DNA of 64,000 bases from the NCBI RefSeq assembly GCF_014137855.1, contig NZ_JACGWT010000002.1:434001-498000 (forward strand), read 5' to 3'. The DNA is from Microlunatus kandeliicorticis. Lineage in GTDB: Bacteria; Actinomycetota; Actinomycetes; Propionibacteriales; Propionibacteriaceae. Positions within the stretch are counted from its first letter, which is position 1. Every line of letters starts with the position of its first letter. The notes under the pieces were generated by a model. That model did no database searches and was not told the DNA's origin. It was given only the letters and a program-made list of their open reading frames with translations. A program made the position numbers and the translations under genes. Below are positions 7,625-57,430 of the stretch, piece by piece.

Positions 7625-8398
7625 TTACCGACTCGCGGCGGCCGAGCCCCGATCCACCTCCGGCGCGGGAGGATGCAGCGCGGTGAGGCTGCGGACGGCG
7701 TCGGGATCGGGTCCGGTGCCGGATCGGTCGAGGTGGACGGCCTGCAGGCCGGCGGCCCGGGCCGCGACCACGTCGAGGTCGTACCGGTCCCCGACGTGCA
7801 GCACCCGCTCCGGGGGGACGCCGAGCGCGGCGCAGACCGTCCGGTAGCTCCGCGGGTCGGGCTTCGGGGTGCCGAGGGCCTCGGCGGTGAACACGTCGAC
7901 CAGGTACGGCGTCGCCCCGATCGCCGCGACCTTGGCACGCTGCTGGACGTCGGACCCGTTGGTCAGCACCGCGATCGGCACCCGGCGCCACCACCGCGCC
8001 AGCGTCGGGTGGACGTCGGGGAACGGCCGCCAGCACGCCTGGTAGCGGCTGCGGAAGCCCTCGAAGGTCGCGTCGAGCTCGTCGTCGGTGCCGACCGGGT
8101 GCCCGAGGACGGGGAGCAGGTCGCGGAGCCGGCGGCGGCGTTGCTCGGCGAAGCTGATCCGCCCGCTGCGCCAGCTCTCGAAGTGGACCTCCTCGACCCG
8201 GAACCAGAAGTCGACCAGCTCCGGCGTCGCCTCCGCGCCGAGGCCGGGCAGCCAGGCGGCGAGCGCGTCGCGGGCCGAGCCGGTGTGGTCGAACAGGGTG
8301 TCGTCGAGGTCGAGGACCAGCGCTTCGACGGGCTCAGCGGGCGCTTCGACGGGCTCGGCGGGCGTTTCGACGGGCTCAGCGGGCGTCGGGGAGGTCAC
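7625..8398 (-). CDS. HAD-IA hydrolase with repeat-encoded N-terminal extension
   Basis: 257 residues. Motif I is VLDLDDTL (Asp30/Asp32), motif II LTNGS, motif III the Lys in GTPKPDP, motif IV GDRYDLD; it is a phosphatase of the haloacid dehalogenase superfamily, probably on a small phosphorylated metabolite. The start GTG overlaps the TGA of the kinase gene upstream (GTGA), so the first ~26 residues are probably translated. They are three near-identical heptads PAEPVEA/T, encoded by three 21-bp units of the dispersed repeat. Motif I follows the extension at once, so a shorter ancestral start has been replaced. Pairing with a sugar-kinase-like gene suggests a phosphosugar substrate, by inference. 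Confidence 0.85.
   Translation of the reverse strand: MTSPTPAEPVETPAEPVEAPAEPVEALVLDLDDTLFDHTGSARDALAAWLPGLGAEATPELVDFWFRVEEVHFESWRSGRISFAEQRRRRLRDLLPVLGHPVGTDDELDATFEGFRSRYQACWRPFPDVHPTLARWWRRVPIAVLTNGSDVQQRAKVAAIGATPYLVDVFTAEALGTPKPDPRSYRTVCAALGVPPERVLHVGDRYDLDVVAARAAGLQAVHLDRSGTGPDPDAVRSLTALHPPAPEVDRGSAAASR
8320..8382 (-). repeat. Three 21-bp direct repeats coding for PAEPVEA heptads
   Basis: Units 8320-8340, 8341-8361 and 8362-8382 share the core CTTCGACGGGCTCAG and differ at one or two bases. Since 21 is a multiple of 3, they stay in frame and give a heptad peptide at the N-terminus of the HAD hydrolase. Same family as the 46-kb array. Confidence 0.9.
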
Positions 8399-12492: not shown

Positions 12493-12554
12493 GCCCTTCG
12501 ACAGGCTCAGGGCGCGGTCGACGTGACCACGGTGCCCTGAGCCCGTCGAAGGGC
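12493..12554. terminator. Repeat-derived bidirectional hairpin between convergent genes
   Basis: Two copies of the dispersed repeat in opposite orientation. Arms 12493-12513 and 12534-12554 match at 20 of 21 positions, with a 20-nt spacer. It fills the gap between peptidase E and the TetR gene, so it would fold in transcripts from either strand. Confidence 0.75.
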
Positions 12555-24789: not shown

Positions 24790-24820
24790 ACCGGGCCGGA
24801 GGCATCGCTTCCGGCCCGGT
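24790..24820. terminator. Hairpin terminator of GT2, convergent gap
   Basis: ACCGGGCCGGA (24790-24800) is exactly complementary to 24810-24820 with a 9-nt loop, 132 bp after the glycosyltransferase stop. It is flanked on the right by the 14-bp tandem repeats. Confidence 0.65.
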
Positions 24821-24907
24821 TCGCGTTCCCCGGTTTGCGTTCCCCGGTTTGCGTTCCCCGGTTCGCGTTCTCCGGTTCGCGTTCTCCGGTTCGCGTTCTC
24901 CGGTTCG
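24815..24907. repeat. 14-bp tandem repeat, six full copies
   Basis: Unit (C/T)CCGGTT(C/T)GCGTTC. Full copies start at 24815, 24829, 24843, 24857, 24871 and 24885; a seventh is cut off at about 24907, six bases before the stop codon of the convergent sugar dehydrogenase gene. Point differences run in blocks (C/T at base 1 and at base 8), as expected from slippage growth. Confidence 0.9.
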
Positions 24908-45373: not shown

Positions 45374-46021
45374 ATGACCGCGCGGATCCTGGTCGTCGAC
45401 AACTACGACTCCTTCGTCTACAACCTCGTGCAGTACCTGGCCCAGATCGGCGCCGAGGTCGAGGTGTGGCGGAACGACGACCAGCGCTTCGCCGAGCCGG
45501 GCGCTCTGGACGGCTTCGACGGGGTGCTGCTGTCGCCCGGGCCGGGGACGCCCGAGCGGGCCGGCGTGTGCATCGACCTGATCCGCGAGCAGGCGGGGCG
45601 GACACAGGGTCAGGTGCCGGTCTTCGGGGTGTGCCTCGGTCTGCAGGCCATCGGGGTCGCCTTCGGCGGCGTGGTGGACCGGGCGCCCGAGCTGCTGCAC
45701 GGCAAGACCTCGCTGGTCGAGCACGACGGCTCCGGGGTGTTCCGCGGGCTGCCCAGCCCGTTCACCGCCACCCGCTATCACTCGCTGGCCATCGAGCCCG
45801 AGACCGTCCCGGACAGCCTCGAGGTGACGGCGCGGACCGAGAGCGGGGTGGTGATGGCCGTCCGGCACCGCAACCTGCCGATCGAGGCGGTGCAGTTCCA
45901 CCCGGAGTCGGTGCTGACCGAGCACGGCTACCAGATGCTCGCCAACTGGCTCGCCGACTGCGGGGACGTCGACGCGCCCGTCCGCGCGGCCGGGCTGACG
46001 CCGCTGATGTCGGCCCACTGA
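45374..46021 (+). CDS. pabA: Aminodeoxychorismate/anthranilate synthase glutamine amidotransferase
   Basis: 215 residues, class I GATase. The nucleophile is Cys in FGVCLGLQ; His/Glu are in VQFHPESV. 'VVDNYDSFVYNLVQYL' is the family opening. It releases ammonia from glutamine for p-aminobenzoate or anthranilate synthesis. The chorismate-binding subunit is not in the window, so PabA and TrpG cannot be told apart; the place matches Rv0013 (trpG). Followed by a 430-bp repeat region. Confidence 0.93.
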   Translation: MTARILVVDNYDSFVYNLVQYLAQIGAEVEVWRNDDQRFAEPGALDGFDGVLLSPGPGTPERAGVCIDLIREQAGRTQGQVPVFGVCLGLQAIGVAFGGVVDRAPELLHGKTSLVEHDGSGVFRGLPSPFTATRYHSLAIEPETVPDSLEVTARTESGVVMAVRHRNLPIEAVQFHPESVLTEHGYQMLANWLADCGDVDAPVRAAGLTPLMSAH

Positions 46022-46451
46022 GGTCGCGGCTGCGGGCTGAGCTTGTCGGCGCCCAGCCCTTCGACGGGCTCAGGGCACCGTGGGTGAGGACGCGGGCTGA
46101 GCTGGTCGAAGCCCAGCCTTCGACGGGCTCAGGGCCCGGATCAACGCGGGCTGAGCTTGGCGAAGCCCAGCCCTTCGACCGGCTCAGGGCGCGGATCAAC
46201 GCGGGATGAGCTGGTCGAAGCCCTGCCCTTCGACGGGCTCAGGGCCCGGATCAACGCGGGCTGAGCTTGGCGAAGCCCGGCCCTTCGACAGGCTCAGGGC
46301 ACCGTGGGTGAGGACGCGGGCTGAGCTGGTCGAAGTCCAGCCCTTCGACAGGCTCAGGGAGCGGGTGTTTGCCCTTCGACAGGCTCAGGGTGCGGGGGTC
46401 TGCCCTTCGACAGGCTCAGGGCACCGTCGACGGGCTCAGGGCACAGCGAAG
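46022..46451. other. 430-bp gene-free convergent gap filled by repeats
   Basis: Between the pabA stop and the AlkB-like stop there is no convincing gene. Open frames across it are repeat translations. Nearly all of it is the tandem array described next. Confidence 0.8.
46032..46442. repeat. Tandem array of hairpin-forming repeats
   Basis: Six 54-60-bp units begin at 46032, 46092, 46146, 46201, 46256 and 46316. Each has the form GCGGGCTGAGC..GTCGAAG..CTTCGAC(G/A)GGCTCAGGG, an inverted repeat with a tiny loop, followed by one of two linkers (ACCGTGGGTGAGGAC or CCCGGATCAAC-like). Three single half-units follow to 46442. The two linker types recur (units 1 and 5; 2, 3 and 4), so growth was by unequal duplication of multi-unit blocks. 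Confidence 0.9.
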
Positions 46452-47081
46452 TCAGCGGACGCCGCGGGGGCGGAACTGGACGCTGATCCGGGGGCCGACA
46501 GGCTTGGCGGTCTTGGCGATGGCGTGCTCCCAGGTGCGCTGGCAGGAGCCGCCCATGACGATCAGGTCGCCGTGGCCGAGCGGGAAGCGGTGTACGGCCG
46601 GGCCGCCGCCGCGGGGCCGGAGGGCCAGCTGCCGGGCCGAGCCGAGCGAGAGGATCGCCACCATGGTGTCCTCGTTGCGACCGCGGCCGATGGTGTCGCC
46701 GTGCCAGGCCACCGAGTCGCGGCCGTCGCGGTAGAGGCACATCCCGGCGGTCCGGAACGGCTCGCCGAGCTCGCCGGCGTAGTGCGCGGTGAGGCGCTCC
46801 CGGGCCTGCCTCAGCGTCGGGTTCGGCAGCGGACGCTGCTCGTCGTAGAAGCAGAGCATCCGCGGCACGTCGACCACCCGGTCGTACATCTGCCGACGCT
46901 CGGCGTACCAGGGCACGGTGTCCAGCAGCTCGGCGAACACGGCGTCGGCGCCGGTCAGCCAGCCCGGCAGCAGGTCGACCCAGGCCCCGCGGCTGAGCGG
47001 GATCCGCTCGGCCCGACCGAGCGCGGCGAGCTCGGGCTCCTCGACCAGGTCGAGCAGCGAGGACTGCAGTGTCGTGGACAT
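46452..47081 (-). CDS. alkB: AlkB-like 2-oxoglutarate/Fe(II) dioxygenase
   Basis: 209 residues. WHGD carries the first His and Asp ligands, and 'GSCQRTWEHAIAK' the distal His; a C-terminal Arg (ISVQFR) binds 2-oxoglutarate. Such enzymes reverse N-alkylation of DNA or RNA bases. ATG 47081 has TAGTCT 6 nt upstream, so it is transcribed on its own although it follows pknB. It is an insertion relative to the mycobacterial order. Confidence 0.88.
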   Translation of the reverse strand: MSTTLQSSLLDLVEEPELAALGRAERIPLSRGAWVDLLPGWLTGADAVFAELLDTVPWYAERRQMYDRVVDVPRMLCFYDEQRPLPNPTLRQARERLTAHYAGELGEPFRTAGMCLYRDGRDSVAWHGDTIGRGRNEDTMVAILSLGSARQLALRPRGGGPAVHRFPLGHGDLIVMGGSCQRTWEHAIAKTAKPVGPRISVQFRPRGVR

Positions 47082-57048: not shown

Positions 57049-57430
57049 GGTTCCCTGCCCTTCGACAGGCTCAGCGTCCTTCGACAGGCTCGGGGCCCTT
57101 CGACAGGCTCAGGGACCTCCAGGACACGGAAAAGGCCGGACCGGCAGCTGCGACCTCGGGGGAAAGGACGTAGGTGCCGGTCCGGTGTGGGACTGCTCGG
57201 TTGTGGGTGCTGCGGTGACGGTCGGATGAACTCTGCCGGCGTCGGGGGCCACCGGGGTCGTTCACGTGCTGCCGTCTTGCTGTTCGCTTGCTCGGTGTCC
57301 GGTTCGGCCTCGGTGTCGGGGGCCACCTGCTCCGTTCCTGACACCCAGAACTCTACGGAGCCCGGACCGGGAGTTCTCGGCGCTCTGTGCAGACCTGGTC
57401 GGCAATCCGTGCACAGCTCGCCGGTGCCTG
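57049..57430. other. 382-bp gene-poor convergent gap
   Basis: It starts with three repeat copies, then an 11-bp inverted repeat (57136-57146 with 57175-57185, spacer 28). From 57187 to 57430 the sequence has lower GC and weaker codon bias; an 88-codon plus-strand frame there is Cys/Ser/Gly-rich and not convincing. It may be a decayed gene or an untranslated RNA. Confidence 0.5.
57058..57114 (+). repeat. Three direct copies of the dispersed repeat
   Basis: Copies at 57058-57074, 57078-57094 and 57096-57114, the last a perfect CCCTTCGACAGGCTCAGGG. They begin 9 bp after the stop of the S9 peptidase gene. Confidence 0.9.

Follow-up and report, generated by a model that had tools for sequence, protein, structure and literature searches.

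The intergenic array found in the window (the whole 64,000-nt stretch analysed here, from Microlunatus kandeliicorticis, assembly GCF_014137855.1, contig NZ_JACGWT010000002.1, positions 434,001-498,000 of the forward strand) is probably a BIME-like cluster that grew by tandem duplication and belongs to an orphan family of REPs whose copies are tolerated at the 3' ends of genes. It extends from 46032 to 46444 and consists of six units of 55-60 bp and three half-units. The array lies inside a 430-bp gap, of which it covers 411 bp, where trpG/pabA converges with an AlkB-like gene for a 2OG-Fe(II) oxygenase. The initial annotation had described six hairpin units with three half-units filling this gap, in a locus with crgA, DUF881, trpG and pknB. 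The array is real by TRF and by measurement of the units, and the locus is confirmed by Pfam and by synteny in relatives. The features are the following.

45374-46021, plus strand: trpG/pabA (GATase, Pfam PF00117), the left convergent neighbour
46032-46090, unstranded: array unit 1, an inverted REP pair with linker type A (59 bp)
46091-46145, unstranded: array unit 2, linker type B (55 bp)
46146-46200, unstranded: array unit 3, linker type B (55 bp)
46201-46255, unstranded: array unit 4, linker type B (55 bp)
46256-46315, unstranded: array unit 5, linker type A, 90% identical to unit 1 (60 bp)
46316-46370, unstranded: array unit 6, linker type C (55 bp)
46371-46401, plus strand: half-unit 1, a single REP with linker (31 bp)
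46402-46423, plus strand: half-unit 2, a single REP (22 bp)
46424-46444, plus strand: half-unit 3, a truncated single REP (21 bp)
46452-47081, minus strand: 2OG-Fe(II) oxygenase (AlkB-like, Pfam PF13532), the right convergent neighbour

TRF reports the segment 46032-46364 with a period of 55 (score 408) or 110 (score 490), and periods of 31 and 20 bp continue 3' to position 46444. In each array unit, either arm corresponds to a single REP-like element. The linkers are ordered A-B-B-B-A and then a third type; the earlier description spoke of two linker types alternating in blocks. Units 1 and 5 share an identity of 0.90, units 2, 3 and 4 are 0.89-0.93 identical to one another, and the remaining pairs are at about 0.8. 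Taken with the linker order, these identities are consistent with block-wise growth.

The element has the form stem-TTCGACNRGCTCA-stem followed by a short RCGK tail, where TTCGACNRGCTCA is a nearly invariant 13-nt interior. Its consensus, derived from 180 copies in 800 kb, is GCSC-TTCGAC[AG]GGCTCAG-SGC-RCGK. The stem of 4-5 bp surrounds a conserved interior of 11-13 nt, and its letters vary yet still pair. The pair -2:14 is Watson-Crick in 93% of copies versus 50% after shuffling (G-C in 102 copies, C-G in 60). In copies from other phyla, a set made up of copies that do not match the scan pattern, the pairs -3:15 and -2:14 are 91% Watson-Crick versus 46-47%, with none of 500 shuffles as high. 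When -1:13 is included, the values are 91-93% versus 46-85%. In this genome and in the other phyla, the stem pairs are 91-95% Watson-Crick, far above the shuffles. The element is therefore a small hairpin with covarying outer letters. A lone REP copy folds weakly, while an inverted pair forms a single long hairpin.

The core CTTCGACNRGCTCAGG occurs 838 times in the 4.3-Mb genome (at most 1 mismatch) versus 4 times for a reversed-pattern control, and the repeat sought by the whole-genome search is accordingly not confined to the trpG locus. Among adjacent copies, 84 of 155 pairs have the same orientation. The inverted pairs of this genome vary in spacing from 19 to 42 bp, and of 55 clusters 17 consist of one copy only, which does not point to a doublet of fixed form as the unit here. 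Several other classes of repeat were set aside. An oriented KOPS- or Chi-like signal was rejected, since the retrieved sequence shows no strand bias by replichore (26 of 59 and 60 of 111 copies on the plus strand). On sequence grounds, the integron attC (the units have no intervening cassettes or ORFs), CRISPR (no unique spacers) and DNA-uptake sequence (patchy occurrence, covarying stem) assignments seem not to apply. In Rfam the array gave sub-threshold chance matches, and no family scored above its gathering score.

In the whole window, the REP motif (at most 2 mismatches) was found 36 times versus 4 expected, with a shuffle maximum of 9. Besides the array, there are four further sites.

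1087-1120 (about 1081-1121), plus strand: two REP copies within the predicted ORF 454-1704
8320-8385, plus strand: three REP copies of period 21 in the predicted N-terminus or leader of a HAD hydrolase
12496-12551, unstranded: an inverted REP pair in a convergent gap
57057-57112, plus strand: three tandem REPs of period 19 in a convergent gap

The ORF 454-1704 has a marginal PIG-V mannosyltransferase match. At 8320-8385 the 21-bp period is in frame and translates to PAEPVE-type heptapeptides (TPAEPVE, APAEPVE), resembling the REP-like elements within Rickettsia genes, and the true start of the HAD hydrolase could lie just 3' of these copies. At 24815-24907 the window also holds 6.6 near-perfect tandem copies of another unit, the 14-bp CCCGGTTCGCGTTC, which is not related to the REP.

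To place the repeats relative to genes, 984 kb of this genome were annotated by a gene caller built for the purpose and validated at the trpG locus. This sample contains 64 clusters, 58 of them intergenic and 6 within genes (by extrapolation, the whole genome would hold about 280). Convergent gaps carry 39 clusters versus 9.7 expected by length (p 2e-17), tandem gaps 17 versus 31.7, and divergent gaps 2 versus 16.6 (p 1e-6). One third of the convergent gaps of at least 20 bp have a REP cluster. The enrichment holds when the expectation is taken from the count of gene 3' ends (p 3e-6), and three relatives show the same trend, with 13 of 26 clusters in convergent gaps (p 4e-8). The clusters in tandem gaps begin at a median of 20 bp 3' of the upstream stop. 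Their orientation is opposite to that of the upstream gene in 39 of 47 copies (14 of 17 clusters, same 984 kb), a bias that is absent in the relative G009. The bias hints that orientation matters for the RNA; pure tolerance does not explain it.

The orthologous trpG-AlkB gap differs strongly between species (one genome per species); the initial annotation had suggested that the array could vary between strains. Here the gap measures 430 bp and holds 14 copies, in G018 it measures 92 bp and holds 3, and in G010 (24 bp) and G009 (12 bp) it holds none. This series indicates that the array arose recently, by tandem amplification in place. The gap between SDR and ackA shows another difference, with one REP in each of three relatives and none in this genome. 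Across the sampled part of the genome, adjacent copies of the same orientation have a flank identity of at least 0.7 in 29 of 84 cases (35%), versus 0.6% of random pairs, and these shared flanks support local tandem duplication; slippage or unequal recombination may lie behind it. An empty site bearing a target duplication did not turn up in the genus, which leaves insertion as such presumptive there.

Within the genus, 14 of 20 members have 49-838 copies and the other six have 1-8, three of these six being at 99-100% completeness. On a TrpG tree of 16 genus members, the presence of the repeats needs about 4 changes, at least two of them forced by well-supported branches, and G006 (5 copies) is the sister of G012 (109 copies). 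Among 396 sampled actinobacteria, the exact 15-mer is present in 28, nearly all with 1-6 copies and one with 28. The latter, G374, is a member of the same phylum with a complete 4.5-Mb genome; its congener G384 has none, and G374 is a separate actinobacterial expansion of the core.

The core is present in at least ten bacterial phyla. A stricter 24-position pattern matches more than 115 stretches in named genomes versus about 0.06 expected (our own estimate). Its carriers are Sphingomonadales and Hyphomonadaceae, Chloroflexi, Bacteroidetes, Nostoc, Planctomycetes, 'Deltaproteobacteria', Fibrobacteres, Eremiobacterota, Methylomirabilota, Zixibacteria, Saganbacteria, Vicinamibacterales, and the actinobacterial Desertihabitans and Microbacterium. 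Between the window and Desertihabitans aurantiacus, TrpG identity is 81%, within the range of genus-mates, which suggests that the window belongs to that taxonomic neighbourhood. In 48 carriers from other groups the 15-mer reaches 163 copies per genome, while the control occurs once in all 48. Many of these 48 are metagenome-assembled and single cases may be binning errors, but binning error is unlikely as a general explanation, given the copy numbers and the fact that some carriers are isolates. In the Deltaproteobacteria MAG Ww165, several contigs share a longer near-palindrome, CTTATCCATGGGGGA...TTCCCCCACGGATAAG, that contains the REP core. Caulobacter phage phiCbK and its relatives have a 22-nt exact REP match in a hypothetical gene (17 of 17 records), which at an E value of 0.04 may be due to chance.

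The strong enrichment in convergent gaps could mean that REP arrays are functional bidirectional terminators or barriers, which selection would favour where two genes converge because they block read-through and antisense RNA; termination from both sides had been proposed for this array. In agreement with this, the array RNA folds better than shuffled sequences on both strands (z -5.2 and -4.4), and REP-bearing convergent gaps, when the REPs are masked, seem to lack a separate strong hairpin (24 gaps), a result that would fit REPs having taken over the 3'-end role. However, no U-tract follows the hairpins on either strand, as an intrinsic terminator would require, and a single REP hairpin has about -7 kcal/mol (RNA) versus -15 for the hairpin in the trpG-AlkB gap of G010. 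REP-free convergent gaps have stronger hairpins than coding DNA of equal length (p 2e-7), whereas the REP-bearing ones are no more structured than such DNA. Two relatives have a gap of 12-24 bp, and G009, which has 523 copies elsewhere, has none in its 12-bp gap. On Sphingobium chromids, a REP pair behind htpG is placed ahead of a hairpin, on the side of the stop codon; the strains with the pair retain this hairpin, and sister strains lacking the pair have it too (the gap differs between sister strains by about 145 bp, more than one REP pair). From the missing U-tract, the structure of the gaps and the Sphingobium htpG case, the repeats appear to be elements added close to the ends of genes and not terminators, and selection for termination is an unlikely explanation of them.

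On the usual view, REPs need RAYT transposases. The copies might be fossils of a standard RAYT-REP system whose RAYT was recently lost in the genus, which the REP architecture of the elements and the known precedent of such systems (PMC2817692, PMC8266576) favour. Against this, a Y1 transposase gene (PF01797) was found neither in this genome nor in 39 relatives, while control genomes were positive. These 40 genomes belong to one order, and some of them are complete and carry 170-520 copies. Of the 48 carriers elsewhere, 30 have a Y1 gene and 18 have none, and copy numbers are alike in the two groups (medians 16 and 18.5, respectively, p 0.22), and the core is near only 1 of 30 Y1 loci. Actinobacteridae carry only Y1 genes of the IS200-type subclass 1.1, according to a survey (PMC6006769). 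A recent loss of RAYT is hence quite improbable. The search for another mobiliser gave no protein family recurring beside the core across phyla, and no gene with REPs on both sides at distances of up to 400 bp, in the 984 kb (about 23%) read of this genome plus 617 kb of relatives; a single-copy mobiliser may lie elsewhere in the genome.

It is very doubtful that the repeats organise the chromosome by binding a protein (such as gyrase, as in BIME-2) and that arrays are selected between convergent genes, where positive supercoils accumulate: the location 3' of convergent genes and the transcription-independent gyrase sites of E. coli BIME-2 (PMC6379681) agree with it, but the core is unlike E. 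coli REPs and its near-absence from six genus members, three of them essentially complete, makes such sites dispensable.

The orphan REP family falls within the general REP/BIME definition, with a covarying stem, a high copy number, extragenic 3' placement and inverted or tandem arrays, and the comparison with REP/BIME families suggested at the outset turned out well founded. Like E. coli BIME-2/REP (GTAG), the elements are short imperfect palindromes in hundreds of extragenic copies with a short unpaired tag on one side, and their inverted pairs are tandemly arrayed, lie 3' of stop codons and are rare in divergent gaps. Unlike them, they have another sequence, an RCGK tag on the 3' side and no Y1/RAYT gene. 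The family differs from the GTAG superfamily in its flank, RCGK (MCGY on the other strand) instead of GTAG/GTGG, and no RAYT flanked by the repeat was found in the genome. The CGTC-tagged REPs (Di Nocera 2013) likewise have no dedicated transposase and occur in several phyla, being common in alphaproteobacteria; the phyla reported for them do not include Actinobacteria (PMC3733652). Their stem of 8-9 bp begins with A-T pairs and encloses a loop of 4-5 nt next to the CGTC tag (PMC3733652), whereas here, compared by description, the stem is of 4-5 bp and GC-rich, with an 11-nt interior and another tag. Head-tail dimers are rare in both the GTAG and the CGTC families (PMC3733652), while same-orientation neighbours are common here. 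In Sphingopyxis, the core forms inverted doublets of fixed spacing that fold into one 29-bp hairpin, as in REPINs; the inverted pairs of this genome, with their variable spacing, single-copy clusters and many same-orientation neighbours, differ from REPINs.

The 13-15-nt core is not printed in the open-access literature searched (subscription journals and preprints lay outside it), so an earlier description may exist. Pieces of 12 nt gave only unrelated primer lists there, the main text of RepRanger 2025 contains none of the core's 6-mers, and two leads concerning sphingomonads and Frankia had no bearing on it. It is possible, and we propose it only tentatively, that the family is a third REP superfamily, characterized by the interior TTCGACNRGCTCA and a covarying stem, found in at least ten phyla, spread by means other than Y1/RAYT, patchy between lineages and re-expanding genome by genome.

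Something other than a resident Y1 (RAYT), none being present, would have brought the elements to the 3' ends of genes all over the genome, and they would persist mainly 3' of stop codons, where neither coding sequence nor promoters are damaged. In the trpG-AlkB gap, replication slippage or unequal recombination may then have copied an inverted pair with its flanking DNA in tandem, one unit at a time as well as in blocks, so that a gap once only some tens of bases long grew to 430 bp. The array, if transcribed, would fold into strong hairpins. E. coli REPs act as a 3'-end barrier against exonucleases, and a barrier of this kind, rather than a terminator, is the likeliest cellular effect of the array by analogy.

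Taken alone, the array is nothing unusual for this REP family. What matters is that the family reaches high copy number in a genus without RAYT, and that the same interior occurs from Chloroflexota to Sphingomonadales. This raises the testable question of what copies the repeats and why the 13-nt interior is kept while the stem drifts. With species of 1-8 copies beside species with hundreds, the genus offers a natural comparison set.
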